Translations under genes and position numbers: made by a program
In this document: positions 44,424-64,000 of the stretch, piece by piece
How the letters are laid out: each line of letters starts with the position of its first letter
How positions within the stretch are numbered: the first letter of the stretch is position 1
Notes under the pieces: generated by a model
What the model saw: the letters and a program-made list of their open reading frames with translations, nothing else
Told to the model about the DNA's origin: nothing
Databases searched by the model: none
From: Candidatus Bathyarchaeota archaeon
Lineage (GTDB): Archaea; Thermoproteota; Bathyarchaeia; Bathyarchaeales; Bathycorpusculaceae
Assembly (NCBI GenBank): GCA_018396705.1
Contig: JAGTQZ010000004.1
Span: forward strand, 1 to 64,000
Length of the DNA: 64,000 bases
Direction of reading: 5' to 3'

Positions 44424-44506
44424 AAGGACGTGCGATATAATCGCTTGTTATATGGTCTACATGATCATTGAAAAGAAAAAGAACAGTAAGTGGGAGAGTA
44501 TTCAAT

Positions 44507-45715: not shown

Positions 45716-45722
45716 AGTATTC

Positions 45723-46250
45723 ATGATTAAAGGTAAGGCAATTAAACTTGGAGATGACATTAACACAGATCTAGTCATTGCTGGCAGGTATAAGTTTAAA
45801 TCTGTTTCCATCGAAGAAATGGCGCAACACATATTCGAGGATATTGACCCCTCCCTTGCCTCTCGAATAAAACCTGGCGACATAGTTGTTGCTGGAAAAA
45901 ACTTTGGTTGCGGTTCAAGCAGAGAGCAAGCTCCAAGAGTTATGGTGAAAGCAGGAATTTCCGCAGTTATTGCAAAATCTTTTGCCAGAATCTTTTTCAG
46001 GAACGCCATAAATGTCGGCCTACCTGCCATTGTAGTTGAAGGAAAATTTGTGGATTCCACGTCGGAGTATGACTTGCTTGAAATAGACCTTACAAAAAAC
46101 ACTATTAAAAACTTGACAAAAGACATAGAAGCAAAATTTAAGCCGTTCCCGCAACAGCTTCTACAAATATTGGAGGCCGGAGGGCTCGTCTCATACGTGA
46201 AAAAGAAAATTTCTCTTAATGAGCTAGACAGTGACGTTTCAATCTGGTAA
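45723..46250 (+). CDS. Aconitase-family dehydratase small subunit (LeuD/HacB-like)
   Basis: A 175-residue swivelling-domain subunit. INTDLVIAGRYKFK at the start and KNFGCGSSREQAPRVMVKAG are diagnostic. The loop after Gly-Arg, which in studied archaeal paralogues reads YLRT-like (homoaconitase) or YLV-like (isopropylmalate isomerase) and sets substrate choice, reads YKFK here, so neither substrate is predicted. It lies seven bases after the large subunit and forms a heterodimer with it. Confidence 0.92.
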   Translation: MIKGKAIKLGDDINTDLVIAGRYKFKSVSIEEMAQHIFEDIDPSLASRIKPGDIVVAGKNFGCGSSREQAPRVMVKAGISAVIAKSFARIFFRNAINVGLPAIVVEGKFVDSTSEYDLLEIDLTKNTIKNLTKDIEAKFKPFPQQLLQILEAGGLVSYVKKKISLNELDSDVSIW

Positions 46251-46261
46251 GTTATTGAAAA

Positions 46262-48730: not shown

Positions 48731-49927
48731 ATGACTGTGAAGCTCTGCATACCCACAACTTTTGAGGATTCCTTTTTAGAAAAATTAAAGGAGTTAAATT
48801 ACAAATATTCACAAACAAATGTTCAAATTTATGAAGTATACGGTTCGCTTAAAACGTCGATTCTAGGAACAGGGTGGCCCTCAACGGTCCTCCCAGAAAT
48901 TAACGAAGAAGGACTTGCTCGCCACGTTGAGAAAGCCCATTCCTGCGGTTTTAAGTTTGCATATACTTTAAATGCTGTTTGTATGAACTTGGTTGAATAT
49001 ACCGAAGAGGGGAGAAGCGCCCTTAACGAGCTTTTAGAGAAACTTTCGAAAATGAAAGTTGACATTTTGATAGTTGCAATACCTTACCTTATCGATTATA
49101 TAGCAAACAACTATCCAGAATTCAAAATTAACGCTTCTTCGCTGTGTTACATAGACTCTTTGAATAGAGCCCGCGTTTATGAAAGTCTAGGAGCTTCCAG
49201 ACTAACATTGAGCGAGGATGTTAATCGCTGTTTCAGCTTAATAAAGCTCATAAGAGAGAACGTCAAAGTCGAACTGGAAGTTATAGCCAACAACGGTTGT
49301 CTACTTAAGTGTCCCTTCAGAACTTATCATAACACGATAACCGCCCATGTATCGCAAAATATCATTTCTGATTCAATAGGATTCACATACAAACCTTACC
49401 CTTTCATGAGATGCACGTTGGAAAGATTGAGTAATCATAAGGAGATTATCAAGGCACCATGGTTTAGACCGGAAGATGTCAAATATTACTCCATGTTGGG
49501 AATAGATTACATCAAAATAGCTGGACGCGGGTTGCCTGAAAGAGACTTACTAAAACTTGTTGAAGCTTACCTTTCAGGCGGGTACGATGGCGATATTTAT
49601 GCCTTAATTGATAATTCTTACATGCATTTTTGCTGGGACATGTTTGACACAACAGCCGAGCCGTTGCCACCATTGAAAATATCTATTGATAACCGATCTT
49701 TAGACGGTTGGTATGAATATTTCGTGAATAACAATCCACCATGTTTAATTGGATGTGGAGACTGCAATTACTGTGGGAAGATTGCCGAAAAAGTTGTTAA
49801 AACAGATCCATACGTCGAAAAGATGTATATTGAGAGAATAAAGAAGATTATAGGCAAGATTACGTCAACTAAACCTCCAATAAAAATACAACAAAGCGAT
49901 AAGGGAAGAATTGTAACGTATACCTGA
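48731..49927 (+). CDS. U32-family (peptidase U32 / UbiU-UbiV-like) Fe-S protein
   Basis: A 398-residue TIM-barrel protein of the U32 family. The typical iron-sulfur region ELEVIANNGCLLKCPFR is in the middle (about 190-205), later Cys lie in FMRCTLERL, and a C-terminal CLIGCGDCNYCGKIAEK resembles a second metal site. Members such as UbiU/V and RlhA use [4Fe-4S] clusters in oxygen-independent hydroxylation. Many others, including this one, have unknown substrates. It precedes a CCG-domain Fe-S protein by about 70 bases, and both face the oxidoreductase genes. Confidence 0.83.
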   Translation: MTVKLCIPTTFEDSFLEKLKELNYKYSQTNVQIYEVYGSLKTSILGTGWPSTVLPEINEEGLARHVEKAHSCGFKFAYTLNAVCMNLVEYTEEGRSALNELLEKLSKMKVDILIVAIPYLIDYIANNYPEFKINASSLCYIDSLNRARVYESLGASRLTLSEDVNRCFSLIKLIRENVKVELEVIANNGCLLKCPFRTYHNTITAHVSQNIISDSIGFTYKPYPFMRCTLERLSNHKEIIKAPWFRPEDVKYYSMLGIDYIKIAGRGLPERDLLKLVEAYLSGGYDGDIYALIDNSYMHFCWDMFDTTAEPLPPLKISIDNRSLDGWYEYFVNNNPPCLIGCGDCNYCGKIAEKVVKTDPYVEKMYIERIKKIIGKITSTKPPIKIQQSDKGRIVTYT

Positions 49928-49997
49928 AGGCTGAAACGAAAGCTTAAAGTCTATTACTGCCTTGTAATACTCTGCATCAAAAGAGGACAATTTGAAA

Positions 49998-51083
49998 ATG
50001 GATACATTAACCAGTATAATTGAGAATTGTACTGAATGCCAACTTTGCGTTCAAGAATGCCCATTTTTGTTGAAACATAACAAAACGCCAAAGAAACTTG
50101 CAGAAGAACTTGCAGAAAACGTTAAATTAAGTAAAAATTATGTTAAGGAATGTTTTTTATGCGGCTTATGCCGGGCAGTTTGCCCTTTAGATCTAGATTT
50201 TCCTCAAGTTGTTTCACAAGCAAGACAAAAGCTGGCGCGTGAACTTGCCGCCAACTCATGTTACAAGCTTTCTCTACCCGATGAAAGCCTCTTTTTTCCA
50301 ACAGCGTATAGAACGCATAAAAACTTGCGGTATGATTCACTTAAGAGAGAATTTTTCAAGTATGCCTTTTTTCCTGGCTGCGCTATGTCATGTTATTCTC
50401 CGGAAGCCACTGTAAAAGTTTACGAAAAGCTTGTAGAAAGATTTAATGATGTAAGCTTGGTTGATCAATGTTGCGGTAAACCATTAACAGACGTGGGCCT
50501 AAGCGATAGAGCCTCGAAATGGCTTACGCGGCTAAAGTTATATCTGAAAGAGCATGGTTGCACGGACATCGTGACAGCTTGCCCTATGTGTTATTACTAT
50601 TTACAGTCCAATTTTCAAGGTAAATTTCACATAGTCACAATTTACGAAACTTTACGGGATTTCTTTAGAGAAAGTATAAAAACAGTTGATTTAAAAGTCG
50701 CAGTCCACGACAGTTGTCCGGACAGATTTAAAGGAATTTTCGCTAAACAGGTTAGAGAATTATTCAGAGACAATCAACTTGTAGAGATGACCCATAATAA
50801 GGAAAGGTCTGTGTGTTGCGGAGCGGGGGGACTTGTTTCATGCGCTGACCCAAACCTTACAGTCGCTTCCTCATTAATTAGAGTGGGGGAGTTTTTGGAA
50901 TCTGGAGCTGACCTGATGATTGTTTACTGTTATACATGTGCACAAGTATTTTGGGCTTCCCAGCCCATGGTGCAAACAAAACACGTTATAGATCTAGCTC
51001 TGAAAACCAAAGACGCGTCAGAAAACATTAAAAATCAAGAGGTTAGCAAATTTGCAGAGGGGCTGTTAATAGGAAGAATTTAA
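49998..51083 (+). CDS. CCG-domain Fe-S oxidoreductase (HdrD/GlcF-like)
   Basis: A 361-residue protein: two N-terminal ferredoxin clusters (CTECQLCVQECPFL and CFLCGLCRAVCPLD), then two CCG domains, FFPGCAMSCYS ... VDQCCGKPLTD and VHDSCPDRFKG ... SVCCGAGGLVS. In heterodisulfide reductase D and relatives these motifs bind an unusual [4Fe-4S] cluster for disulfide or oxidation chemistry. Here it is a stand-alone unit without HdrA/E-type partners. ATG 49998 is preferred over the TTG at 49992. The U32 gene precedes it on the same strand. Confidence 0.88.
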   Translation: MDTLTSIIENCTECQLCVQECPFLLKHNKTPKKLAEELAENVKLSKNYVKECFLCGLCRAVCPLDLDFPQVVSQARQKLARELAANSCYKLSLPDESLFFPTAYRTHKNLRYDSLKREFFKYAFFPGCAMSCYSPEATVKVYEKLVERFNDVSLVDQCCGKPLTDVGLSDRASKWLTRLKLYLKEHGCTDIVTACPMCYYYLQSNFQGKFHIVTIYETLRDFFRESIKTVDLKVAVHDSCPDRFKGIFAKQVRELFRDNQLVEMTHNKERSVCCGAGGLVSCADPNLTVASSLIRVGEFLESGADLMIVYCYTCAQVFWASQPMVQTKHVIDLALKTKDASENIKNQEVSKFAEGLLIGRI

Positions 51084-51144
51084 TTTTGGCCCTAAACTCA
51101 ACGTCGGCATGGATTTTTTGTTCCGTTAAATTAAGTAGGTTAGG

Positions 51145-51285
51145 ATGATTAGAAAAAGCCAGTATTGTTCTTTTGCAGATGATTTTTGGCTATACTGCAA
51201 TAAGATTGGTCTTTGCTGCTGTAAGTGCAAAGGTATTAAATTAAACTTGTATCAAAAAGAGTGTATCTTTGTGTTTACCATTTAA
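51145..51285 (+). CDS. Possible cysteine-rich small protein (46 aa)
   Basis: ATG 51145 with AGGT nearby opens 46 codons. The product has seven cysteines, five of them clustered in YCNKIGLCCCKCKG, with one near each end (QYCSF and YQKECIF), a pattern suited to zinc or Fe-S binding. It lies between the CCG-domain gene and the convergent Fe-S subunit gene, where no other feature is seen. No family recognised; the ORF could be chance. Confidence 0.35.
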   Translation: MIRKSQYCSFADDFWLYCNKIGLCCCKCKGIKLNLYQKECIFVFTI

Positions 51286-51377
51286 GTTAGTGTTTTTTCT
51301 TAAACATTTGAGCTTGTGTCTTAATCACGGCTATGCTTTTTCTGTATTGTCCGCAAAGAAATGTCTGCTTTTAAAGG

Positions 51378-51842
51378 CTACCACGGGATCCCTAAAGGGT
51401 AATATGGATCATTATAGCATAAAGCCTTGCTCATGCAGTGTTTAACGCACGGGGGTATTTCCAAGTTTTTATCTACACACATGTCACATTTCTCAATTTT
51501 TCCAGTTTCCGGATTGAGCCATATAGCATGAATCGGGCATGCCTCTATGCATTCTCCACATCCATTACACAAATCTTTGTCGACAGTTACTACGCCGCTG
51601 TTTTGCTTTTTTAAGGCCTTTGTAGGACAAGCAAACACACATCTTGGCTTTTCACATTGCGTACAACGCACTATCCTAAACCTAATAGTCAATTTTCCAT
51701 TTTTATCGTAACAAGGCCCGTTTCTTTCAACTTTAATTCGAAAAACTCCAATGGGTAGTTTGTTAATCTGCTTGCAAGCAACCTCACAGGAGTGGCATCC
51801 GACACAAAGTCGGGGATTCACCACTATGGTTTTCTTCGCCAT
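51378..51842 (-). CDS. Four-cluster ferredoxin-type electron-transfer subunit (HycB/CooF/DmsB-like)
   Basis: A 154-residue protein with four Cys groups: CVGCHSCEVAC, CTQCEKPRCVFACP, CNGCGECIEACP, and CDMC ... CVKHC. This is the 16-Cys layout of DmsB, HycB and CooF subunits that shuttle electrons for molybdopterin enzymes. It lies two bases after the 722-residue oxidoreductase and is almost certainly its partner. It has no TM segment or twin-arginine signal, so it is likely cytoplasmic. Confidence 0.93.
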   Translation of the reverse strand: MAKKTIVVNPRLCVGCHSCEVACKQINKLPIGVFRIKVERNGPCYDKNGKLTIRFRIVRCTQCEKPRCVFACPTKALKKQNSGVVTVDKDLCNGCGECIEACPIHAIWLNPETGKIEKCDMCVDKNLEIPPCVKHCMSKALCYNDPYYPLGIPW

Positions 51843-51844
51843 GG

Positions 51845-54013
51845 TTAGTCCTCCGCTTTGTAAACTTTACAGAGAAGCCCCCTCATGACCGTTGTCCCAA
51901 CTATTGCTTCATAGCCGTAGGTAGGTTTTAGCGGTATCAGCACGTTTATGTTTGGTTCGAACGTTTTCTTTTCATAGTTTTTCTCCTCTGGATACCACCA
52001 TAAAGCTTGAGCAGAAACAACTTGTGGATGAATGCCATAGGTTAGCGCAGCTTTCATCCTTACGCGTCCATTGCCTTTGGGAGTTTCTATGTAAACCCAG
52101 TCTCCATCCTTAATACCAAGTTTTTCGGCTGTTTCAGGATGGATCTCAACCGAGGGATATGGTAAAAGCTCCCGTAAGTATGGGATATTATGGCCCATTG
52201 TTTGATAGGAGGATATGTGTCTCGCACCTGTTATCAGTATTAGCGGGTACTCCCTCACCAATTCAGGAGTAGAGTACGGGCTTTCAGGCGGCTCAACATA
52301 ATTTGGCAGTGGGTCATATCCATACTTTTCAAGAAGAGTTGAGTATAACTCACACTTACCAGTGGGTGTTCTAAAACCAGGCTTACCATCCTCTCGAAGC
52401 AAGCCTTTCTTATATCTCTCCTCAATAACTTGAGAGAACACATATCCTTTTTTCTTAAAATCTTCAAAAGCCATGTTCAACTCTTTTAGGCGATAGTCTA
52501 AAAACTCCTTATAAGTGGATACTGGAAAGGGCAGTTTAATGCCCATTCTTTTCACAAGTTCAAAGAGCACCTCGTTGTCGTCTCTACATTCACCAATAGG
52601 TTCTATAGCTTTCTGGCGTGCTGCTATAAAATTTGTATAACAAAATGCATCACATATATCGTCACATTCAAGGTATGTTGCTGATGGTAAAACGTAATCT
52701 GCAAGCTCAGCAGTTGGAGTCATAAAGAAATCCATTACGACCAGCAATTCCAAATTTTTGAATGCATCCACAACCTTTCTGCTATCTTCAAAGCTAACCG
52801 CAAGATTGGAAGTTGCAATCAACGCTTTGACTGGATATGGTTTCCCAGTTAACATGGCCTCAATAACGCTTGGCGGGTGAGTTAAACATCTAAAAGAGTT
52901 AGGTCCAGAAAGAAGTGGATAAGTTTCGGAGCCTATCGCCTTTTTTTCCATTTCCCTGCTTAAGCGCAGTTGCTTTTTGATGTTCATGTAAGTGAGCTTT
53001 ATCGGGTAATTTGAAATTTCCGCACCTCCTCTTATGTCTATGTTGCCCGTTATGGCCACAAGAATTGACAACGCTCTGCTGGTTTGCACCGAATTGTAAC
53101 TCATTGACACTCCAAGGTGAGACTGAAGCGACGCAGGTTTTAAAGTTGCATAAATTTCAGCCGCCTCGATTATGTCTTCTTTCGGCACCCAAGTGATTTT
53201 CTCAACTTTTTCTGGCGGGTATTCTTGAACCCTTTCAGCTAATTGATCAAAACCATAACACCATTTTTCCACAAAATCAGAATCGTAAAGCTTCCGGTTT
53301 ATTATAACGTTAAGCATACCAAGAGCCAGAGCTCCATCTGTTCCAGGTCTGATCTGCAACCAAACATCAGCCATTGCTGCCAGCTCGGTTAAGCGCGGAT
53401 CAACAACAATAAGTTTTGCGCCCTTATTTTTTGCTTTAATAATCTTTTTCCCTAATGGCGGGTAAGTGTGCAGCGGATTGTATCCCCACAAAACTATACA
53501 TTTGCTCTTTCTATAGTCTGGCACACCAAACTCACACGTGTACACTTCGCCACAAGTAAGCAAGTCGGCGGTTAAGTGAGGAGTATAACAGTAGTGGCAA
53601 TTTCCAATGAGTTGGTTAGGCGAGCCTACTGCGGCTAAGAATATGCTTAACCCAATGGCCGCCCTTTTCGGATACGTTCCATATGAAACCGCAATGGCCT
53701 CGGGTCCGTACTCGTTTTTTATTCTTAAGAGCTCTCTGGTTATGTCATTTAACGCTTCTTCCCATGTTACTCGTTTCCACAGTCCTTCCCCCTTTGCTCC
53801 CGCTCTTTTAAGAGGATACTTTAGCCTTTCCGAATGATAAACTAGTTGCAAGAAAGCTAAACCCTTAGGACACATGTAGCCTTCATTCAAGGGGTGATGA
53901 GGGTCTCCTTCAATTCTAAAGGCTTTCCCATTGTCATCGATGTGAACTAGTACTCCGCATTCGCACATGCAACCTCCGCATACAGTCCGCACTACTTTGG
54001 CCATAATAACCAT
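51845..54013 (-). CDS. Molybdopterin (Mo/W-bisMGD) oxidoreductase, catalytic subunit 1
   Basis: A 722-residue member of the DMSO-reductase superfamily. The N-terminal Fe-S motif is CGGCMCECGVLV with CPKG about 30 residues on. The four domain landmarks are WEEALNDITRELLRI, VDPRLTELAAMADVWLQIRPG, TPTAELADYVLPSATYLE, and a C-terminal LITGARHISSYQT ... HPETAEKLGIKDGDWVYIETP. The metal-ligand region reads SPNQLIGNCHYC, and no Sec or FDH-type Cys motif is evident. Overall closer to acetylene-hydratase- and thiosulfate-reductase-like branches than to FDH. The substrate is unknown. It has no Tat signal, so it is cytoplasmic. Confidence 0.93.
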   Translation of the reverse strand: MVIMAKVVRTVCGGCMCECGVLVHIDDNGKAFRIEGDPHHPLNEGYMCPKGLAFLQLVYHSERLKYPLKRAGAKGEGLWKRVTWEEALNDITRELLRIKNEYGPEAIAVSYGTYPKRAAIGLSIFLAAVGSPNQLIGNCHYCYTPHLTADLLTCGEVYTCEFGVPDYRKSKCIVLWGYNPLHTYPPLGKKIIKAKNKGAKLIVVDPRLTELAAMADVWLQIRPGTDGALALGMLNVIINRKLYDSDFVEKWCYGFDQLAERVQEYPPEKVEKITWVPKEDIIEAAEIYATLKPASLQSHLGVSMSYNSVQTSRALSILVAITGNIDIRGGAEISNYPIKLTYMNIKKQLRLSREMEKKAIGSETYPLLSGPNSFRCLTHPPSVIEAMLTGKPYPVKALIATSNLAVSFEDSRKVVDAFKNLELLVVMDFFMTPTAELADYVLPSATYLECDDICDAFCYTNFIAARQKAIEPIGECRDDNEVLFELVKRMGIKLPFPVSTYKEFLDYRLKELNMAFEDFKKKGYVFSQVIEERYKKGLLREDGKPGFRTPTGKCELYSTLLEKYGYDPLPNYVEPPESPYSTPELVREYPLILITGARHISSYQTMGHNIPYLRELLPYPSVEIHPETAEKLGIKDGDWVYIETPKGNGRVRMKAALTYGIHPQVVSAQALWWYPEEKNYEKKTFEPNINVLIPLKPTYGYEAIVGTTVMRGLLCKVYKAED

Positions 54014-54165
54014 CTTTATTAAGGAAAGACACCTTAGAGGTAAAAGGTGATATATCCTTTTTCTTTGAAATTTCTACGCTCTAATGATGCTTTGATGCTT
54101 ACGCTAAAGAAAAGCAAAGTCTAGTTAATGTAATAAAAAAGTATGTGATGGTTGTATCTGATTTA

Positions 54166-56727
54166 CTATCTATTCGCTGGGAATTGCATGAAGGGCGCAA
54201 AGCCTACTGCTCGGTAAACTTTGCATAAGAGAGCCCTGTTTTGCCAAGAGCCAGTGTAGGGATCTAGAGTTTCAAGGTCGTCTGGCACAAGCACGTTGGT
54301 GTTTGATATAAAGTTGCCATACCACCAGTACTTGTCTCCCGGAAGCTCCGGGTACCACCAGCTGGCCTCGGCGTTAACAACCTTGGGATGTATTGCGCTT
54401 GATATTTTTGCTTTCATGAGTATTTTGCCTCTTTTTGTTTCTATCCAAACCCATTCGCCTTCAGCTATACCAAGTTCTCGCGCTGTCTCGGGGTGTATTT
54501 CAACAAGCGGATCTGGGTGTTGTTCCCGCATTCCCATTCCCCATTGTCTCAGCTCAGAATGGAATTGTGGCCTGAACCTACCTCCAGTAGTGAGTATTAA
54601 TGGATACTCTTTAGCTAATTCCGGTTGCGTCACAGGACTTTCATAAGGTTCAATGTAGTATGGAAGAGGACTTCTTCCAAGTTGTTTAAATATTGTCACC
54701 CAGATTTCAGCTCTACCAGTGGGGGTGCCAAAGCCTCTCGGCCTACCCGTGTCCGGGTTGATATGCTCATAGCTCCTCGGCTTCCATGTAGCTATTACGT
54801 AAAGGTCTTTAGCCTCTTCAAGAGTTAACCCAATAGGTTCAAGCCTAGCATTGTCAGCCTCCTCCAAAGTTTCCCATGGAAAAGCGTCTCTCCATTTTTC
54901 TTCCGGCAATAGTCTTTTTGCAAGCTCTCTAAACATCCAATACTCATCTTTTCTTTCGCCTAAAGGTTCAATCGCTTTCTCCCAAACGGTTAATCCTGGA
55001 TGGAAGTCTTCAAACGTTGCTACATAAGGCCTTTCAAGAGACTTTGTCGCAGCGGGCAACACGTAGTCTGCAAAAGTGCATGACGGGTTCATCCAACGAT
55101 CTATCACAACTGTCAGCTCTAGGTTTGGGCTACTTAATGCTTGATAGACAAGTTTGGTGTTGGGGGCCCACACAGCTGGGTTTCCAGCCCATATTATTAG
55201 GCTTTTAATTGGATATGGCTTACCCGTGATTATTGCCCTAGCCAAGACTGGCCAGTTCACACCGAACATGTGCCCTGAAACACACGGATTAATTCTCCAA
55301 ACCCTTTTATAATGAGGTTTCACAAGGTCGAACATAGGCCAAGCCATTATTGGGAATATGTCTGCTCCAAGCTGCTTCTTTTTCATTTCAGGTGAAAGGT
55401 GATCTTGATAGTCTAGCAAAGCTTCCCTCAGAAACATTCTTCCGCCTATCTCTGGACCTGGCTGCGTCATAATGTCTCCGCCAACCACGTCTAGGTTTCC
55501 GGTGAGTATTCTCAGCATGCAGCGGGCTATTTCAACAGACATTGAAGCCCTGCCTAGCTGGTCTGGAGCCACACCTCTATACATGCATGCAGGCTTTGTC
55601 GTGGCGTAAAGCCTAGCCGACTCCGCTAAGAGCTTTTCCGGAACCCACGTAATCTCGGACATTTTCTCTGGAGGATACTCCATAACTCTTTCTTTAAAGG
55701 CTGTAAACGCAGTTTTACATTCAACAGTTTGCCCGTCGATGTCCTCCACTTTGAAGTATCCTTCCAGTTCAACTTTAACGTCCCCGTCTGGAATAGGCTC
55801 ACCGCTCAGTGTGTAGAATTGCTGCATAACTGGATCCCATATGACAGGGCCTCGCTTTTTGTCTATGGCTACATATCTGTCATCCCTGCCGCCCTTAACA
55901 AGGTCTTTCTCAGTGAGCCACCAATCTTTGTCTATTCTAAGCAATAATGGCCCGTTAGACCATCTCTCAATAAACTCTTGATCATACAGTTTCTCTTTGA
56001 GTATGACGTACATCCATGCTAAGAAAACTCCAGCGTCTGTTCCTGGTCTCAGTTGAAGCCAATAATCCGCCACTCTAGCCTCTTCAGTAAATCTTGGATC
56101 CAAAACTATGAGGTGAACCTCTTCTCCGCTTGCCTTCCGTCTCATTATGTTATTCCATTGTTGCGGTAGCGACTCTGAAGGGTGTCTACTATCCAGAACG
56201 ATACATTTTGAATTAGCTATATCCGGTGTATGCGTATTGTTACCGTAAATGCAATATTGCATAGAAACATCACACGTAGAGCATATGGTTCCAGGCGAAG
56301 TAACATTACCAGGGTTGCCTATTGCAAACAAAAATCTAGATCTTGCCCAATAAAGATCAGTTCGATAGGTTCCTTCAGCAACGGCTATGCATTCTGGACC
56401 GTACTTATTAATTAACTCCTTAAGTTTGGCAGCAATTTCATCAAGGGCTTGATTCCACGATATTCTTTGCCATTGCCCTGAACCTTTTTCGCCGACACGT
56501 TTAAAAGGATACTTAAGTTGGTCAGGATGGTAAATAAAGTCCACCATATGGCGTATTCTTTCTTCGCATACAAATCCTCGACTCACAGGGTGTTCCGGGT
56601 TGCCTGTAACCTTTACAAGACGCCCAGTCTTTTTATCTACATAAGCTAACAAGCCACAACGGCACCAACACCCTGGCTCACCACTGTGGCAGCCTATTTT
56701 TTTAACTTCTAGTTCTTCTTCAACCAT
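54166..56727 (-). CDS. Molybdopterin (Mo/W-bisMGD) oxidoreductase, catalytic subunit 2
   Basis: An 853-residue paralogue with the same domain order (WNQALDEIAAKLKELINKYG, VLDPRFTEEARVADYWLQLRP, NPSCTFADYVLPAATKSLERP, HPETARELGIAEGEWVWIET) but an insert of about 90 residues (about 265-350). The Fe-S motif is altered: a Cys six residues before CWCRC, giving C-x6-C-x3-C with an extra Cys in between. The probable metal-ligand segment reads SPGTICSTCDVSM. ATG 56727 is preferred to the frame start at 56772. The gene is transcribed ahead of oxidoreductase 1 with a 152-bp gap. Confidence 0.93.
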   Translation of the reverse strand: MVEEELEVKKIGCHSGEPGCWCRCGLLAYVDKKTGRLVKVTGNPEHPVSRGFVCEERIRHMVDFIYHPDQLKYPFKRVGEKGSGQWQRISWNQALDEIAAKLKELINKYGPECIAVAEGTYRTDLYWARSRFLFAIGNPGNVTSPGTICSTCDVSMQYCIYGNNTHTPDIANSKCIVLDSRHPSESLPQQWNNIMRRKASGEEVHLIVLDPRFTEEARVADYWLQLRPGTDAGVFLAWMYVILKEKLYDQEFIERWSNGPLLLRIDKDWWLTEKDLVKGGRDDRYVAIDKKRGPVIWDPVMQQFYTLSGEPIPDGDVKVELEGYFKVEDIDGQTVECKTAFTAFKERVMEYPPEKMSEITWVPEKLLAESARLYATTKPACMYRGVAPDQLGRASMSVEIARCMLRILTGNLDVVGGDIMTQPGPEIGGRMFLREALLDYQDHLSPEMKKKQLGADIFPIMAWPMFDLVKPHYKRVWRINPCVSGHMFGVNWPVLARAIITGKPYPIKSLIIWAGNPAVWAPNTKLVYQALSSPNLELTVVIDRWMNPSCTFADYVLPAATKSLERPYVATFEDFHPGLTVWEKAIEPLGERKDEYWMFRELAKRLLPEEKWRDAFPWETLEEADNARLEPIGLTLEEAKDLYVIATWKPRSYEHINPDTGRPRGFGTPTGRAEIWVTIFKQLGRSPLPYYIEPYESPVTQPELAKEYPLILTTGGRFRPQFHSELRQWGMGMREQHPDPLVEIHPETARELGIAEGEWVWIETKRGKILMKAKISSAIHPKVVNAEASWWYPELPGDKYWWYGNFISNTNVLVPDDLETLDPYTGSWQNRALLCKVYRAVGFAPFMQFPANR

Positions 56728-56772
56728 AACTAATATTCTCCCATAGGAGGAGAAGGTTTGGCAACACTCCAT

Positions 56773-57033
56773 AAAAAAATTTCGGTAACTTTATTATTTC
56801 TTTAATGGCAATGTACCAATGATGAGAATTTTAAGTGTTCAACCGGCTGCAACTAACGCGGGATACAATGCTTGAACAAGCACTCAATCTTTTGAGGGAC
56901 GTTTACGTGAAAACATAATATTAACTTAAAATTTTTAGTGTTTGCGGCCTGCTATTAATGCTCTGGGATACTGTTTATCTGCGAAGGGTGAGAGCCCTCA
57001 AGATTTATTTGCCGTAATCATGAAATATAGTTT
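56773..57033. promoter_or_regulatory. Divergent intergenic region between oxidoreductase 2 and radical SAM genes
   Basis: About 260 bp with no ORF. AGATTTATTTG (about 57000-57010), 27 bases before ATG 57034, could be a TATA box for a leaderless radical SAM transcript. Several short hairpins are possible but no clear operator or riboswitch was recognised. Confidence 0.3.
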
Positions 57034-58431
57034 ATGAACACACTTGCTGAGACGAGTAGTCTATGCCCAGAATGTTTGCAAGTTGTCTTTGCTAGGATAG
57101 TCGCTGACGGCACAAGAGTTTACATGAAGAAATTTTGCAGACAACACGGAGAAAAAACAGCATTGATATGGAATGATCTTAAACTCTACACACGGGCGTT
57201 ACGTTTTTCTAGGCCGGGTAAACCTGCCAAACCATATGTTGAAAAAACTGTAAGGGGTTGCCCTTTCGATTGTGGTCTTTGTCCATCTCACAGGCAACAT
57301 ACCTGCCTAGCCATATTGGAAGTTACGGATGCCTGCAACCTATTGTGTCCCATATGCCTCGCGGATTCCAAGAGTATCCCAAAATGGAACCCTACAACTG
57401 AAGACATTGAAATAATGCTTAAAGAACTTTTGAAATGTGAGGGCAAACCTACAGCCATCCAACTGTCGGGAGGGGAACCAACCGTTAGAAAAGACCTCCT
57501 TGACATAGTTGGATTATGCCAGGATCTGGGTTTTAAACTAATTGAGATAGATACAAATGGGATCGAACTTGCAAAAAATCCAGGCCTTGCCAGAGACTTG
57601 GCTGACGCTGAAGTCAGCGGGATATACCTACAATTTGATGGTCTGTCGCCAAAAATCCATCAAATTATAAGAGGGCGTGACTTAACAAAAATTAAGGAAA
57701 AAGCTATTAAAAATTGTCTGAATGCAGGCTTGAGCATAACTTTGGCGGTAACTGTTCTGAAAGGCGTTAACGAACATCAGTTGTGGGACATAATTAAGTA
57801 TGCGGTGTCGAGGAAAGCCATAGGAGTTAACTTTCAACCCTTCGCCGCCCTTGGGAGATACCCACCTAATTTATTCGACCCATTAAACAGAACAACAGTA
57901 GGTGACGTGCAAATCGGGATTGAACAACAAAGCGGTGGAAAAGTGAAAGCCGTTGATTTCATGCCTGTGCCATGTCCAGACCCTAGGTGTTCATCGCTTC
58001 TCTATGCCTATTACCGCACAGACAAGGAGCTAAGCACTATCAGCACACTTGCGGATATGGAACAGTTGATAGATAAATATTCGCTTAAAAACGAGTTTGT
58101 TGAATTTGACAAACTACTGAAAGCTGTCGCTGATGAACTTGCAGTTTCACACGCCATTTTAAGACACTTTAAACCTCAAGCAATCGGCTCATCCCTTAGG
58201 CTTTTGCTGGAACATATAAAGCCAGAAGGCTTTTTCTCTGTAGGATGCCACTTCGCTCAAGACGCTTGGACAGTTGATTTAGAGAGACTGTCCAAGTGCT
58301 GTGTCCATGAGTTGAGAGAAAATGGGAGGCTTATACCGTTCTGCCTCTATAACATTACATCGGTAAATGGCGAAAGGCTATATAGAGATAGTAATCTATT
58401 CCTTAAGCTGTCTGGAGCTCAACGGGTATAG
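57034..58431 (+). CDS. Radical SAM protein, COG1964 family (tetraether-synthase-like)
   Basis: A 465-residue radical SAM enzyme. The N-terminal zinc/rubredoxin-like part starts LCPECLQVVFARIV and ends FCRQHGEK. A CPFDCGLCPSHRQHTCLAIL segment comes next, then the SAM motif CNLLCPICLADS (about residue 108), then SGGEPTVRKDL and TNGIEL. Extra Cys near the C-terminus (PVPCPDPRCSSLL, CCVHELR) suggest auxiliary clusters. This architecture is shared with the archaeal lipid-coupling Tes/MJ0619 enzymes and their relatives, so a role in tetraether lipid synthesis is possible; several COG1964 members have unknown function. It is leaderless or has a very short leader. Confidence 0.85.
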   Translation: MNTLAETSSLCPECLQVVFARIVADGTRVYMKKFCRQHGEKTALIWNDLKLYTRALRFSRPGKPAKPYVEKTVRGCPFDCGLCPSHRQHTCLAILEVTDACNLLCPICLADSKSIPKWNPTTEDIEIMLKELLKCEGKPTAIQLSGGEPTVRKDLLDIVGLCQDLGFKLIEIDTNGIELAKNPGLARDLADAEVSGIYLQFDGLSPKIHQIIRGRDLTKIKEKAIKNCLNAGLSITLAVTVLKGVNEHQLWDIIKYAVSRKAIGVNFQPFAALGRYPPNLFDPLNRTTVGDVQIGIEQQSGGKVKAVDFMPVPCPDPRCSSLLYAYYRTDKELSTISTLADMEQLIDKYSLKNEFVEFDKLLKAVADELAVSHAILRHFKPQAIGSSLRLLLEHIKPEGFFSVGCHFAQDAWTVDLERLSKCCVHELRENGRLIPFCLYNITSVNGERLYRDSNLFLKLSGAQRV

Positions 58432-58675
58432 GTGACTGCTGATTTATACAATCAACAATTGCGTTAAAGTTTGGGTTCTCACCTGAAAGGTTAAGTTTAC
58501 CCCCCGCAAGTTTAACAGTGAAGCCCTTAGCACACTGTTTAAAAGTCATGACGAAAGTGGCGAAAATCATTGGCTCAAGTTTAGGTTCCGTCGTTATTTC
58601 ATAGTCTTTATCGGCAACCTTCTTGACGATTACTAACAATTTGGGCGGAAGATTTGATCTTGGTAGGAATATCAT
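58403..58675 (-). CDS. Small protein of unknown function (90 aa)
   Basis: A 90-residue ORF from 58675, antiparallel to the radical SAM gene and overlapping its 3' end by 29 bases. The product has an alternating hydrophobic/charged pattern (KLLVIVKKVADKDYEITT, FVMTFKQCAKGFTVKLAGG) and ends NQQSPIPVELQTA. It has two cysteines but no motif I recognise. It may be a real gene, since it has a good codon pattern and a CAT start near a TTGCATCC region, but no family can be named. Confidence 0.5.
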   Translation of the reverse strand: MIFLPRSNLPPKLLVIVKKVADKDYEITTEPKLEPMIFATFVMTFKQCAKGFTVKLAGGKLNLSGENPNFNAIVDCINQQSPIPVELQTA

Positions 58676-58804
58676 TGTTGCATCCTCTCAGTAAGGAGTG
58701 TCCAAACAAATTTAAAGCTTTTCGATAAAACTGCACAACTTTTAATAAATTAACACCGAAAATAAAAAAGTAGGCTAAGCCTGGTGAGGGAGGAATAACG
58801 AAGA

Positions 58805-59164
58805 ATGTCCACCGCATTATATCCGAAAATTAAGCTATGGCTTGTCAACGAAAATGATGAGGCTGTATTAGGTGAGGGCTTGGCGAGGCTTTTAGAAGCG
58901 GTTGAAAAATGTGGCTCAATCCTTGAAGCTTCTTCAAACTTAAACATGTCATATCGATACGCCCTTCACAGAATTTCCCTAGCAGAAAAACGTTTAGGTT
59001 TCAAAATCGTTAAGCGAAGTCGCGGCGGGGCTTCTGGAGGTTCTTCAGAGTTAACAAGTGAAGGAAAAGCCCTTCTTGTAAAATATGAGAAAATAGAGAA
59101 GGATATAACCAAATTTTTGAAATCTGGGAAATATCAATTCAAAGCTAAAGAGAAAGATCCTTAA
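58805..59164 (+). CDS. ModE-type winged-helix transcriptional regulator (DNA-binding domain only)
   Basis: A 119-residue protein with the ModE N-terminal winged helix: LGEGLARLLEAVEKCGSILE, LNMSYRYALHRISLAEKRLG, then VKRSRGGASGGSSELTSEGKALL. The C-terminal molybdate-binding TOBE domain of E. coli ModE is absent, as in many archaeal forms. It probably controls the Mo/W genes around it. ATG 58805 follows GAGGGAGGAATAACGAAGA. Confidence 0.85.
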   Translation: MSTALYPKIKLWLVNENDEAVLGEGLARLLEAVEKCGSILEASSNLNMSYRYALHRISLAEKRLGFKIVKRSRGGASGGSSELTSEGKALLVKYEKIEKDITKFLKSGKYQFKAKEKDP

Positions 59165-59166
59165 TA

Positions 59167-59955
59167 TTATTTGGGCTTGATTGTTATCTGCTTGCAGGCT
59201 CCTTTAAAACTCGGTGTTCCCCCTCCCTCTGATACTACTTGCAAAATCTTTTCGCTATCTGTAATTTTTATGCTGCCTATAATTGACACCCCGTGTCTAA
59301 ATAAGGGGTCAGGAAGCATGCTTGCTGTGGGGCCTACGAGAGCTACTTCTCTTGCAGTTCTAGAAAGTTCCAAAAGGCGATCTATTGTTCCGTTAGCTAA
59401 AGCTGTGCCGGTGATTATTGCGACTGTGGCTTGTGGAAGAATCTCCTCGATAGCCGTGTCTGGAAAAACATTTGCTTCGCGCAGTTTCGGGTTTCTCTCT
59501 ATTATGAAAATGTTTCTTGTTTTCTCCATGATCTTTGGGATAAAGGGATGAATGTTTCCGACAAGGACGACAATATCGTTTCGTCTAATTTCAAGTTGAT
59601 CAATAAGATCTCCTTCGGTAATCACGTATCTATCCAAATTTCTCTCAATAGCCAGCTGGGAAAGAGCGTTTAAAGCCGCCACGCCTACAACCGCTTCGCT
59701 TAAATCCCATGACAAAGATAATTCAGCAATTTTTATGGCTGGGTTGCCAGCCAATGTTCCAGCTCTTCTCCAAATTTGGCAACAATTCGGTGCTATTTCG
59801 CTACTAAAAGTGTAGCATAAACCTACGTGTCGCGTACTAAGCTGAACTGCTGTGTAACCCAGCCCTATAACAACCTTTTTAGCTTCTACCGCATCTACAT
59901 TCTCAACTTCAGCCTTAACTGATTGTAATAATTCTCTGATTATTCTTCCAGGCAT
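59167..59955 (-). CDS. DUF364 / heavy-metal-chelation-domain protein
   Basis: A 262-residue member of the DUF4213/DUF364 family: VVIGLGYTAVQLSTRHVGLC, RAGTLAGNPAIKIAELSLSW, LVGNIHPFIPKI, ATVAIITGTALANGTID and VGPTASMLPDPLFRHGVSIIG. Members sit beside molybdenum, siderophore or cobalt genes and are predicted to handle metals. It lies two bases from the end of the convergent ModE-like gene, between it and the FmdE gene, which supports a Mo/W role. The start is ATG 59955. Confidence 0.88.
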   Translation of the reverse strand: MPGRIIRELLQSVKAEVENVDAVEAKKVVIGLGYTAVQLSTRHVGLCYTFSSEIAPNCCQIWRRAGTLAGNPAIKIAELSLSWDLSEAVVGVAALNALSQLAIERNLDRYVITEGDLIDQLEIRRNDIVVLVGNIHPFIPKIMEKTRNIFIIERNPKLREANVFPDTAIEEILPQATVAIITGTALANGTIDRLLELSRTAREVALVGPTASMLPDPLFRHGVSIIGSIKITDSEKILQVVSEGGGTPSFKGACKQITIKPK

Positions 59956-60072
59956 TATGAAACCTCAATGTGAGAATTTCGATCGCGGAATATTAAAGCT
60001 TTTATACCGATGTTACAAACTTATAATATCGCTTTAAAGAAGTCCACATTGAAAACCAGAGGAGGTTGAAGA

Positions 60073-60657
60073 ATGAAAGATGATGTAAAGTTGGCTGAGG
60101 TGCTTCATGGGCACTTTTCTCCCGGGGTTGCCCTTGGGGTTCGAATGGGTCGAATTGGGTTGAAAGCACTCGGCCTTTCAAAGGGTGATAAAAGGCTTTT
60201 CGCTATAGTTGAAACGGCGTTATGCTTGGCTGATGGTGTCCAGGCCAGCACTGGTTGTACACTGGGGCATTCTTCTTTGCGTGTTGAGGATTTCGGGAAA
60301 CTCGCCGTTTGTATAGCCCGATCCGACACAAAAGAGGGTGTGCGGATATCCCTTAAACATGGGTCTATGCCTCCAGTTGTTGAGGATTGGGTGATGCGCA
60401 AGAAAAAGTTTAGCCATGACGAGGAGGAAAAAATTGCCAAAGAACTGTTGCATTTGGACGAGGAGTCTTTCCACGTTGAACCAGTGTCCGTCGAGCCGTT
60501 TTCAAAGTTTGATGAAGCTGAAATAGTGAAGTGCGACGTGTGCGGCGAATGGGTTGTCGAAACAAAAGCAATCAAGGCTGAGGGAAAAACCATTTGTAAG
60601 GCATGCAGTGGTGCAAGATATTACCAACCGCTCAAGCCTTCCCAAACAAACCTTTAA
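60073..60657 (+). CDS. FmdE family protein
   Basis: A 194-residue FmdE-family protein: HGHFSPGVALGVRMGRIGLKAL, then TALCLADGVQASTGCTLGHSSL, and a C-terminal zinc ribbon VKCDVCGEWVVETK ... ICKACSG. FmdE occurs in operons for molybdenum formylmethanofuran dehydrogenase, and its exact role is unsettled. GAGGAGGTTGAAGA just upstream is a strong ribosome site. The gene begins a probable operon with the following metal ABC importer, 15 bases on. Confidence 0.92.
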   Translation: MKDDVKLAEVLHGHFSPGVALGVRMGRIGLKALGLSKGDKRLFAIVETALCLADGVQASTGCTLGHSSLRVEDFGKLAVCIARSDTKEGVRISLKHGSMPPVVEDWVMRKKKFSHDEEEKIAKELLHLDEESFHVEPVSVEPFSKFDEAEIVKCDVCGEWVVETKAIKAEGKTICKACSGARYYQPLKPSQTNL

Positions 60658-60672
60658 AAGGGAGGGTTGAAA

Positions 60673-61770
60673 ATGCGGAAAAGCTTTATCGCCTTGATAC
60701 TTTCTCTCTTACTCTTGGTTCTATGTTTGACAGCCTATTACGCTTGGCTTTCTCCAAACCTCAATGAAGGAACTATCGTGTTCACCGACGCTCTCGGCAG
60801 GACCGTTAAAATTAAAATGCCAGTAAATAAGGTGATAATTACCGGAAAAAGTGCATGGCCTATAACAACAGTAGCGTATATGTTTCCAAACGCCAAAAAC
60901 GTTTTATATGGTTTAAGTGCAAGCATAAACGTTTCACTATTCCAAAAAATTGATCCAGACCTAGCATCCAAGATTGTTCCAACAACTGAACTTAGTGTTG
61001 AAGAAATAGCCAAGGCACAGCCTGACGTTGTTATACTCAAGTCTACACCTTCAATGAAGGAATTAGGTGACCAGCTTGAAGGGTTAGGCATTAACGTTGT
61101 TTATGTTGATTTTGAAAACTTAGAAAGCTACATTCGAGACCTAAAAGTGCTAGGAAAAATTTTCATGGACGAGGAAAGAGGCGAAAAACTAGCAAAATAC
61201 TACAACGAAACATACAACATTATTGCTTCAAAAACAAAGACACTCACAGAATCTGAACGCAAAAAAGTCTTGTTCCTATACTATAGCATCAAAAATGGCT
61301 TTCAAGTGCCTGGTAGCAGTTGGCTGCAAACGTTCATGATAGAGGCTGCAGGTGGCTACGCCTTGTCAAAGGAAGTTTCTGGAACCGGATGGAACCCTGT
61401 AAATTTTGAGCATATTGCAGAATGGAACCCTGACATAATATTTCTAGTCACCTACTCAAACTCTCCGACCTCTAGCATGGTGAAAAAACAGCTTTTAGAA
61501 AACGCTACATGGAATGAGATATCTGCCATCAAAAGTGGAATGGTTTACGCCTTTCCTGACGACTGTAGTGTTGGCGCTTTGGGAAGCTGGGATTGCCCAG
61601 GTTCACGCTGGATCCTTGGGCTAGAATGGATGGCAAAGAAAATATGCCCAGAGCTTTTCAGCGAATTAGACATTAGAGAGGAAACTAAAAGGTTTTATGT
61701 AGAAATGTATGGCCTAAGCCGGTCAGACGCTGAAACAATCATTGGCCAAATTACTGGAGATTTCCTATAG
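60673..61770 (+). CDS. ABC importer substrate-binding protein, TroA/FecB-like (Mo/W uptake candidate)
   Basis: A 365-residue lipoprotein-like or anchored solute-binding protein. An N-terminal hydrophobic signal (FIALILSLLLLVLCLTAYYAW) is followed by the class III binding fold DALGRTVKIKMPVNKVIITG, VEEIAKAQPDVVILKSTPS and FEHIAEWNPDIIFLVTY. GGGAGG sits seven bases before ATG 60673. Related FecCD-type systems include MolABC for molybdate/tungstate as well as siderophore and cobalamin importers. The ModE/FmdE/MobB surroundings favour Mo/W. Confidence 0.9.
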   Translation: MRKSFIALILSLLLLVLCLTAYYAWLSPNLNEGTIVFTDALGRTVKIKMPVNKVIITGKSAWPITTVAYMFPNAKNVLYGLSASINVSLFQKIDPDLASKIVPTTELSVEEIAKAQPDVVILKSTPSMKELGDQLEGLGINVVYVDFENLESYIRDLKVLGKIFMDEERGEKLAKYYNETYNIIASKTKTLTESERKKVLFLYYSIKNGFQVPGSSWLQTFMIEAAGGYALSKEVSGTGWNPVNFEHIAEWNPDIIFLVTYSNSPTSSMVKKQLLENATWNEISAIKSGMVYAFPDDCSVGALGSWDCPGSRWILGLEWMAKKICPELFSELDIREETKRFYVEMYGLSRSDAETIIGQITGDFL

Positions 61771-61789
61771 TGGCTTAAAGGTGACGCTT

Positions 61790-62764
61790 GTGGGCGGATA
61801 CGCCAAACGCTTTCTAGCGCTTGTGTGCGTTTTAGCCCTCGTCTTCATCATTTCCATTTTTTTTGTCGGTAGATTCACGTTTAATATTTTTCAGCTTATG
61901 AATGACGAGTTAGCCTTAAACATAGTTTTGAGAATTAGGTTGCCCAGAGTATTAGCGGCGATGATGCTTGGCATGGCTTTATCCGTGGCTGGGGCAGTCA
62001 TGCAGTCTGCATTTAAGAATCCGTTGGTGGGGCCGGAAATTTTAGGTGTAAGCCAAGGAGCAGCTTTTGGTGCAGCATTTGCAATACTCTTTCTGCCAGG
62101 AGACCCATTGAAACTTGAGATTCTTTCAACGATCTTCGGGCTATCAGCACTCGTGGCCTCTTACGCTTTTTCTTCGGCGATAAAGTATGGTGGAAGAATA
62201 CTTAGACTTGTTTTAGCCGGTTTGGCCGTTTCAGCCATGTTTTCAGCAGGCGTCGGTGTTATGAAGTATATGGCGGATCCTCTTAAACAGTTGCCCGAGC
62301 TAACTTTTTGGCTTTTAGGCGGCTTATCAGGTGTTGTATGGAGAGACTTTCTCTATATGGCTCCTTTAGCCACAACAGCTATTGCAATCTTATTTATTGT
62401 TAGATGGCGAATAAACCTGTTAACACTAGATGATGACGTAATCACATCGCTTGGAACAGACCCTAAAAAACTTAGAGCATCAGTCGTCACGTTGGCTGTG
62501 ATTGCTACGGCCGCCGTGACCTCTGTAGCTGGAATTATAGGCTGGATTGGGCTAACGGTTCCTCATGTCTGTAGGAAGCTTTTCGGAGCTGAAAGTAGCA
62601 AAGTGATACCAGCGTCCATACTTTTAGGTGCCATATTAATGATCATTTTTGATGACATAGCGCGGGCTGCTTCGGTTGGGGAAATTCCTCTGGGCATAGT
62701 TACATCATTTTTAGGCGCAATTCTCTTTGTATTATTCCTTTCAAGAGGCGTGCCGCATGAGTAA
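61790..62764 (+). CDS. ABC importer permease, FecCD/BtuC family
   Basis: A 324-residue permease with about ten TM helices and the family signatures LRIRLPRVLAAMMLGMALSV, GAVMQSAFKNPLVGPEILGV and GIIGWIGLTVPHVCRKLFG. GTG 61790 has GGTGA just upstream. The frame upstream of this, overlapping the binding-protein gene, is unlikely to be used. The last 8 bases overlap the ATPase gene. It forms a dimer in the inner membrane and works with the ATPase next door. Confidence 0.94.
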   Translation: MGGYAKRFLALVCVLALVFIISIFFVGRFTFNIFQLMNDELALNIVLRIRLPRVLAAMMLGMALSVAGAVMQSAFKNPLVGPEILGVSQGAAFGAAFAILFLPGDPLKLEILSTIFGLSALVASYAFSSAIKYGGRILRLVLAGLAVSAMFSAGVGVMKYMADPLKQLPELTFWLLGGLSGVVWRDFLYMAPLATTAIAILFIVRWRINLLTLDDDVITSLGTDPKKLRASVVTLAVIATAAVTSVAGIIGWIGLTVPHVCRKLFGAESSKVIPASILLGAILMIIFDDIARAASVGEIPLGIVTSFLGAILFVLFLSRGVPHE

Positions 62765-63551
62765 GATACTCTTCAAAAATTTGAAGTACCGGTATCCAAT
62801 TTCCAAAGTAGATGTGTTAAAAGGAATATCCCTACAAATTCCAGAAGGTAAAGTCACCGCACTCTTAGGACCCAACGGATCGGGAAAATCTACTCTTTTC
62901 AAAGTTTTAATAAAAGTTTTAACACCTTACGAAGGCAACGTCTATATAAACGGTGAAGAGCTAAAACATATTAACGTTGACTCCTTAAGCAAGACAATAG
63001 CATGGGTTCCCCAAGAGGAAGATTCGCTTTTTCCCTATACGGTCTTAGACTACGTGCTTTTGGGCAGAACTCCACATCTCGGCTTTTTTAATATGCCAAG
63101 TAAAAAAGACGAGGAAATCGCACACAACATCTTGACACAACTAAACTTGTCTAGCATAGTCCATAGAAAGGTTACAACATTAAGTGGTGGAGAAAAGAAA
63201 CTTGTTTCCATAGCTAGAGCGCTTGCTCAAGAATCTGACACTCTAATCTTGGATGAACCCACAGCGCATCTAGATATTGGAAACAAAGTGAAGGTGCTTA
63301 ACATTATTAGGAAGATGGCTGATTCTGGAAAAACAGTTATATTTTCGACGCATGACCCTAATGAAGCTTTTCTTGTTGCTGACAATGTGGCCATAATGAA
63401 TGGTGGTGAAATAATAAGTGAAGGTTCACCAGCTACAGCTATAACCGAGGAATCGTTGGGAAAGGTTTATGGTATACCTGTAACAGTACATAGGATAGAT
63501 GATAAGCAGGTTTTAGTGGGAATTCACCTCCAAGGCTTTAGGCCTTCCTAA
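62757..63551 (+). CDS. ABC importer ATP-binding protein, FecE/BtuD family
   Basis: A 264-residue ATPase: Walker A LLGPNGSGKST, Q-loop WVPQEE, signature LSGGEKK, Walker B LILDEPTAHLD, switch His STHDPNEAF. ATG 62757 overlaps the end of the permease gene by eight bases (coupled translation). It is the last gene of the FmdE / binding protein / permease / ATPase unit, and overlaps the end of the convergent MobB fragment by 14 bases. Confidence 0.96.
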   Translation: MSKILFKNLKYRYPISKVDVLKGISLQIPEGKVTALLGPNGSGKSTLFKVLIKVLTPYEGNVYINGEELKHINVDSLSKTIAWVPQEEDSLFPYTVLDYVLLGRTPHLGFFNMPSKKDEEIAHNILTQLNLSSIVHRKVTTLSGGEKKLVSIARALAQESDTLILDEPTAHLDIGNKVKVLNIIRKMADSGKTVIFSTHDPNEAFLVADNVAIMNGGEIISEGSPATAITEESLGKVYGIPVTVHRIDDKQVLVGIHLQGFRPS

Positions 63552-64000
63552 CTATGAGTTTTATTTCTGTCACATGATTGACACCATTTAAGGAAGAAAC
63601 CATCCCAATTAAGGTTCTCTCTATAAAAAGGCTTGGGAAAAACTTTAGCGGCACAACTTGTCCATTTACCTCTAAAACTACATTCGTTCTGCCATAAAGT
63701 GGACATCCCCTAAGATCTGCGACTCCGGCGATTATGGCTTTCGCAAGTTCATGACACGTGTCATATCCGCATTCCTTACAATGCGCAAGGTTTGGGAAAA
63801 GCGGGAGGGCCTTTTGCTCAACCAAGTCTGCAAGTTTATTGACTTCAACTTTGCAATTAAGTATTGGAACATTAAATGTTGAAGCTTTTTCTACTTCCTC
63901 TTTGGATTCGGCTATAATTCCAGAAACTGCAATAGCTAGACCGTCGCAAAATGTTCGCACTTCAGACGCATCTTTAGCTGCAATTATCTTCGCCACAGCT
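63538..64000 (-). CDS. MobB-like protein with C-terminal Fe-S domain (5' end outside window)
   Basis: The visible 153 residues are the C-terminal part of a longer protein whose start is beyond base 64000. A segment like the end of a MobB P-loop domain (KIIAAKDASEVRTFCDGLAIAVSGI) is followed by a Cys cluster, HCKECGYDTCHELAKAI and LRGCPLYGRTN, matching archaeal MobB fusions. MobB participates in adding nucleotide to molybdopterin. The GTG at 63996 is not a credible start for a complete gene. It closes the Mo/W island at the right edge. Confidence 0.65.
   Translation of the reverse strand, partial: AVAKIIAAKDASEVRTFCDGLAIAVSGIIAESKEEVEKASTFNVPILNCKVEVNKLADLVEQKALPLFPNLAHCKECGYDTCHELAKAIIAGVADLRGCPLYGRTNVVLEVNGQVVPLKFFPSLFIERTLIGMVSSLNGVNHVTEIKLIVRKA

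Follow-up and report, generated by a model that had tools for sequence, protein, structure and literature searches.

The described systems closest to the locus analysed here belong to several fields. In the dimethyl sulfoxide (DMSO) reductase family, catechol dehydroxylases have been reported as closest to acetylene hydratase (2e7z), with archaeal members noted (PMC7028382, from which we take the relation), and ergothioneine is made by a further relative of this clade (PMC9516567). In the clostridial phloroglucinol route, connected with pyrogallol hydroxytransferase (4v4c), the next two steps are carried out by short-chain dehydrogenase/reductase (SDR) and cyclase-family enzymes (PMC10470551). 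Bacterial TrsS cassettes combine a radical S-adenosylmethionine (SAM) protein (NF045646), a methyltransferase of the DVU_1556 type (NF045667) and a dicluster/CCG protein (NF045663) alongside molybdenum (Mo) enzymes; TrsS has been named as a predicted selenoprotein (PMC13188914). Loci for molybdenum/tungsten (Mo/W) uptake and insertion of the bis-molybdopterin guanine dinucleotide (bis-MGD) cofactor join an ATP-binding cassette (ABC) importer of the FecCD type with ModE, MoeA and MobA/B. We compared with these systems a region at the end of a 64,000-nucleotide stretch from Candidatus Bathyarchaeota archaeon (the window, C4:1-64000, where C4 is contig JAGTQZ010000004.1); the region under study is 48731-64000.

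Three units meet in this region: unit A (a U32-family protein, a CCG protein, the Mo/W enzyme Mo868, a TrsS-like radical SAM protein and the small gene orf90), unit B (ModE, FmdE, FecBCD and MobB-FeS, continuing into MoeA-MobB-MobA) and unit C (the Mo/W enzyme Mo722 and its ferredoxin). We give about an even chance to the reading that the stretch joins two larger systems, namely an island that degrades an aromatic or polyphenol-like compound anaerobically and includes a TrsS-type accessory module, and an independent Mo/W block. The basis of this reading is homology, conservation of the set in relatives and, at the aligned position, loss of the catalytic Asp of acetylene hydratase; the substrate of the island and the roles of TrsS and U32 are inferred.

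Gene content of the region

All genes named in the initial annotation are present at 48731-64000, but its inventory overlooked a conserved 90-aa gene, orf90. The two bis-MGD enzymes, described there as divergent, fall in different subclades of a tree but are not divergently transcribed: Mo868 (56772-54166), Mo722 (54013-51845) and the iron-sulphur (Fe-S) subunit (51842-51378) are all encoded on the minus strand, and U32-CCG and TrsS lie on the plus strand. Nor is the cluster confined to 15 kb, as had been proposed. It continues past 64000, and 6 of the 14 genes with Molydop_binding matches in the source genome (archaeal, 1.7 Mb, 96.7% complete) are clustered in C4:51-93 kb (Poisson P about 5e-6). 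Base composition (39-45% GC in the units, 44% in the rest of the window) gives no clear sign of recent transfer. The genes are as follows.

48731-49927, plus strand: U32-family protein (Pfam PF01136, E 1e-14) with an extra C-terminal Cys cluster, C338-x3-C-x2-C-x2-C; unit A
49992-51083, plus strand: 4Fe-4S dicluster protein with two CCG domains, matching the C-terminal half of NF045663; unit A
51378-51842, minus strand: 4Fe-4S ferredoxin-type protein, predicted electron-transfer subunit of Mo722; unit C
51845-54013, minus strand: Mo722, predicted bis-MGD Mo/W enzyme, acetylene-hydratase side of the DMSO reductase family; unit C
54166-56772, minus strand: Mo868, predicted bis-MGD Mo/W enzyme, placed by the tree as sister to acetylene hydratase; unit A
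57034-58431, plus strand: TrsS-like radical SAM protein, CxxxCxxC at residue 101; unit A
58403-58675, minus strand: orf90, small conserved gene, no Pfam or NCBIfam family; unit A
58805-59164, plus strand: ModE-type helix-turn-helix protein without the molybdate-binding domain (TIGR00637, 69.6 bits, cutoff 98.5)
59167-59955, minus strand: DUF4213/DUF364 putative metal chelation protein, whose counterpart adjoins FecBCD-FmdE in another genome (G122)
60073-60657, plus strand: FmdE-family protein, 62% identical in the synteny with genome G025; unit B
60667-61770, plus strand: FecB-type substrate-binding protein; unit B
61742-62764, plus strand: FecCD-type permease, candidate Mo/W importer; unit B
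62727-63551, plus strand: ABC ATPase of the importer; unit B
63538-64000, minus strand (full gene to C4:64308): MobB-FeS domain protein (NF011064); unit B

Unit A and the island beyond the window

Gene neighbourhoods were compared in 151 genomes of the class Bathyarchaeia and in further metagenome-assembled genomes (MAGs) found by scanning named genomes; on a MAG contig, a gene that is missing carries less weight than one that is there. The combination singled out in the initial annotation was confirmed, and other archaeal genomes have it too. Orthologues of U32 (at least 70% identity) and Mo868 (at least 74%) were each found in two of the 151 class genomes, the source genome and JZ_bin_23 (G126; same order, another family), both of which also carry the clade of the window TrsS. 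No U32 or Mo868 matches were found in the other two sampled genomes of the source genus. The named-genome scan added JZ_bin_36.1 (G481) and Guaymas B19_G17, each with the TrsS clade, orf90 and Mo868. The U32 orthologues in JZ_bin_23 and JZ_bin_36.1 are 71-72% identical, and an orthologue of the CCG protein (51%) lies beside U32 in locus L039.

On one contig of JZ_bin_36.1, TrsS-orf90-U32-CCG is followed by thiolase-like, DUF35, enoyl-coenzyme A (CoA) hydratase, SDR, cyclase and CoA-transferase (CaiB) genes, and a second contig carries Mo868 (88%)-HdrB-HdrC-Mo708-FeS-methyltransferase-HdrA-polyferredoxin-transhydroxylase homologue. A single contig of JZ_bin_23 reads U32...HdrA-methyltransferase-FeS-Mo708-HdrCB...TrsS-orf90-ModE; in Guaymas B19_G17, TrsS-orf90 is followed by the Mo868 N-terminus at the contig end. 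The corresponding Hdr, methyltransferase, transhydroxylase and CoA-pathway genes of the source genome lie beyond the window, at C4:68.8-99.6 kb. Beyond the window the conserved set comprises HdrA/B/C, the methyltransferase, a pyrogallol-transhydroxylase homologue, the cyclase, the SDR and CoA-linked genes. Rather than being tied to the metal genes, as had been suggested for the oxidoreductases, the oxidoreductase/U32/TrsS side is linked in JZ_bin_36.1 and JZ_bin_23 to HdrABC, methyltransferase, transhydroxylase and CoA-pathway genes. These comparisons indicate that unit A forms one end of a conserved island of about 50 kb (C4:48.7-99.6 kb), common to a few uncultured Bathyarchaeia.

The Mo868, CCG and U32 theme is repeated elsewhere in the source genome (G000 C4:442689-452886; L145, L157). 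There, two GlcD-like flavin adenine dinucleotide (FAD) genes and genes for a CCG Fe-S protein and a U32-like pair (one of 333 aa, weakly UbiU-like, and one of 268 aa, recognised by eye) are found close to a paralogue of Mo868 (about 50%).

Comparison with pyrogallol and phloroglucinol degradation

As judged by alignment, the gene at C4:73162-75744, outside the window, encodes a close homologue of pyrogallol hydroxytransferase (1086 bits over residues 8-858, the whole length), with the NPDSWEG active-site motif kept. The island resembles the pyrogallol-phloroglucinol system in having this transhydroxylase together with a small Fe-S subunit, SDR and cyclase-family genes, although the SDR and cyclase match the phloroglucinol-pathway enzymes at the family level only. 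It differs in being archaeal and in being embedded with HdrABC, U32, TrsS and CoA-transferase/thiolase-like genes. Given the transhydroxylase homologue and the family-level SDR and cyclase, an island for anaerobic catabolism of polyphenols or aromatics would be the best explanation.

In such a route, the substrate would be imported by a Liv-type ABC importer, and the Mo/W enzymes (the pyrogallol-hydroxytransferase homologue and the acetylene-hydratase-side Mo868) would act on the ring hydroxyls (rearranging, removing or adding them) without oxygen. The SDR and cyclase may dearomatise and open the ring, the CoA transferase, enoyl-CoA hydratase and thiolase-like genes may break down the product, and HdrABC with polyferredoxin would handle the electrons. 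The accessory module of TrsS, methyltransferase and U32/CCG most likely makes or modifies a cofactor or substrate for the Mo/W enzymes. With this scheme, uncultured Bathyarchaeia would have a possible anaerobic route to the use of polyphenol-like carbon.

Several observations weigh against this scheme. The cyclase and SDR families are broad, and the cyclase has weak matches among solved structures (best E 7e-13). The CaiB and thiolase-like genes imply a CoA chemistry foreign to the clostridial phloroglucinol cluster, gene order is not the same among the three fullest island copies, every genome compared is a MAG, and TrsS-methyltransferase pairs of Chloroflexi and Actinomycetota occur without an adjacent Mo enzyme.

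A second transhydroxylase-type pair (874 aa plus Fe-S subunit) is encoded close to a second cyclase-family gene at G000 C4:174092-179270 (L146).

Placement of Mo868 and Mo722

Among solved structures, both oxidoreductases match acetylene hydratase best (407 and 380 bits), ahead of Psr (284 and 204 bits). Similarity runs over the full length, and the Cys aligned with the metal ligand Cys141 is kept in both proteins. In a 23-sequence tree, Mo868 groups with acetylene hydratase (97/94), and Mo722 lies in a different subclade. By contrast, the catalytic Asp13 of acetylene hydratase is replaced by Met16 in Mo722 and Trp36 in Mo868, and Mo868 has no first cluster Cys at the usual spacing. With the catalytic Asp lost, identity of either protein as acetylene hydratase was rejected. 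Catechol dehydroxylases stand beside this clade and a further relative makes ergothioneine, so the substrate is not readable from the clade. A placement within a characterised group, which the initial annotation had named as grounds for refutation, was not obtained: neither enzyme reached the NCBIfam cutoff for formate dehydrogenase (TIGR01591, best 355 against 666 bits), thiosulfate reductase (PRK15488 PhsA, best 335 against 694 bits) or any other characterised group.

Of the 151 genomes, 10 have a match to Mo722 with an E value no higher than 1e-130; JZ_bin_23 is not among them. One of the closest homologues of Mo722, on G027 C3, again has an adjacent ferredoxin. Unit C is distributed independently.

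The TrsS-like protein and orf90

The radical SAM protein, assigned to COG1964 in the initial annotation, is present. It lies closer to TrsS, with 424.4 bits against NF045646 (below the curated 490-bit cutoff), than to tetraether synthase Tes, with 340 bits against NF045702 (cutoff 450). In a tree of 34 sequences, TrsS and Tes split at 100/100 with the window protein on the TrsS side, where it forms its own clade (100/100) with those of JZ_bin_23, JZ_bin_36.1 and Guaymas B19_G17. A separate Tes-type gene is present in the source genome at C4:365885. With this gene and the tree split, identity as tetraether synthase was rejected; the window protein appears from its sequence to be related to, yet distinct from, that enzyme.

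Neighbours were counted at the 80 loci of the named-genome scan that match the window protein best, a choice that biases the frequencies. Methyltransferases were found at 62, CoA ligases at 46, dicluster/CCG proteins at 43, aldehyde oxidoreductases and XdhC at 29 each and MocA at 26. Of these, 34 bacterial loci had flanks of 8 kb or more in both directions; a methyltransferase was present at 29 of the 34 and a Mo enzyme at 22. The island resembles these cassettes in having a TrsS-type radical SAM protein, a probable DVU_1556-type methyltransferase (NF045667, 122.8 bits, under the cutoff of 155) and a probable dicluster/CCG protein covering half of the NF045663 model, alongside Mo enzymes. It differs in that the window TrsS belongs to a long-stemmed archaeal clade of its own, in that aldehyde oxidoreductase, XdhC and MocA are not adjacent to it, in that the methyltransferase lies 25 kb off (C4:82968), and in the addition of U32, orf90, HdrABC and bis-MGD enzymes. 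The CCG gene starts 64 bp after U32. In Syntrophorhabdus and unclassified Deltaproteobacteria (L071, L076, L113), a TrsS-methyltransferase-CoA ligase-CCG cassette occurs with a corrinoid protein, an AcsV-like corrinoid activator, FmdE and an acetylene-hydratase-side MopB.

The orf90 gene is convergent with TrsS, with a 29-nt overlap, and its orthologues adjoin TrsS in three other genomes (70-78% identical). A search with its AlphaFold2 model (pLDDT 79) gave no convincing fold match, only weak mixed ones (Prp-like, eIF1-like). At L040:2696-3001, a 101-aa gene beside orf90 is apparently a diverged orf90 paralogue (27% identity).

TrsS, an uncharacterised radical SAM family, is tied to Mo/W enzymes of two unrelated folds in two domains of life, and its function therefore becomes testable. 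A bolder proposal, which we consider rather improbable, is that an undescribed cofactor, or a small redox or methyl carrier, required by aromatic-acting Mo/W enzymes is the product of TrsS, the methyltransferase, U32/CCG and orf90. The same TrsS-methyltransferase core would then serve molybdenum hydroxylases in bacteria and, in Bathyarchaeia, bis-MGD enzymes of the acetylene-hydratase side.

Unit B

What had been called MobB is present as a MobB-FeS fusion running off the window, followed outside it by MoeA, MobB and MobA-like genes. The order ModE-FmdE-FecBCD-MobB-FeS-MoeA-MobB-MobA is fully syntenic in G025, a genome of another family (47-71% identical), where U32 and Mo868 matches were not found and the sole match to the TrsS query is of the long Tes type. 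DUF364 is missing from the G025 block. The ModE gene occurs with unit B in G025 and with unit A in JZ_bin_23.

Unit B resembles known Mo/W uptake and bis-MGD insertion loci in gene content and synteny, and the linkage of the FecBCD importer with ModE, MoeA and MobA/B is conserved. It differs in that its ModE has no molybdate-binding domain and in that FecBCD is a putative Mo/W importer. No ModA/WtpA-type binding protein was over cutoff in the source genome; TupA-type transporters were not searched for. The genome has three MoeA genes. Reading by eye upstream of the ModE-linked genes for a shared operator revealed only archaeal promoter-like stretches. Since unit B is in synteny in a genome without unit A, it is probably an independent Mo/W uptake and cofactor-insertion block serving all of the approximately 14 Mo/W enzymes of the genome.

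Alternative explanations

The initial annotation had proposed a self-contained Mo/W pathway, in which importer, ModE, FmdE, DUF364 and MobB feed the two adjacent oxidoreductases. The genes are physically close, ModE lies between the units in this region and adjoins TrsS-orf90 in JZ_bin_23, and FmdE and an acetylene-hydratase-side MopB occur near TrsS in the Syntrophorhabdus-type bacteria. Against this, unit B is whole in G025 without U32, Mo868 or a TrsS-type protein, FecBCD-FmdE-DUF364 stands alone in G122, FecC and DUF364 were not found in JZ_bin_23 at the thresholds used, Mo722 and its ferredoxin are independent, and the genome holds 14 Molydop_binding genes. We regard such a pathway as very unlikely. 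We also think it quite unlikely that Mo868 and Mo722 serve respiration, as reductases or dehydrogenases acting on polysulfide, thiosulfate or formate, instead of transforming aromatics. Formate dehydrogenase and PhsA are among the best-scoring NCBIfam models, and Mo708, a Psr-side relative, belongs with its ferredoxin to the conserved set, but all scores are far under the cutoffs and acetylene hydratase exceeds Psr as the best solved structure for both.

The accessory genes might instead act on membrane lipids, with the TrsS-like protein, methyltransferase and orf90 modifying them as the relative Tes does and travelling with the Mo/W island by chance. The closest solved homologue of the window TrsS is indeed tetraether synthase (7tol, 264 bits), Tes-type motifs are kept in it, and many TrsS-methyltransferase pairs occur without Mo enzymes. 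This role appears unlikely in view of the clean TrsS/Tes split, the Tes-type gene that the genome already has, and the Mo enzymes at most well-flanked TrsS loci, with MocA and XdhC at many.

Upstream of the catabolic island proposed here, at 43185-47464 of the window, translations indicate an isocitrate dehydrogenase, aconitase-type large and small subunits and an isopropylmalate/homocitrate-synthase-like gene.

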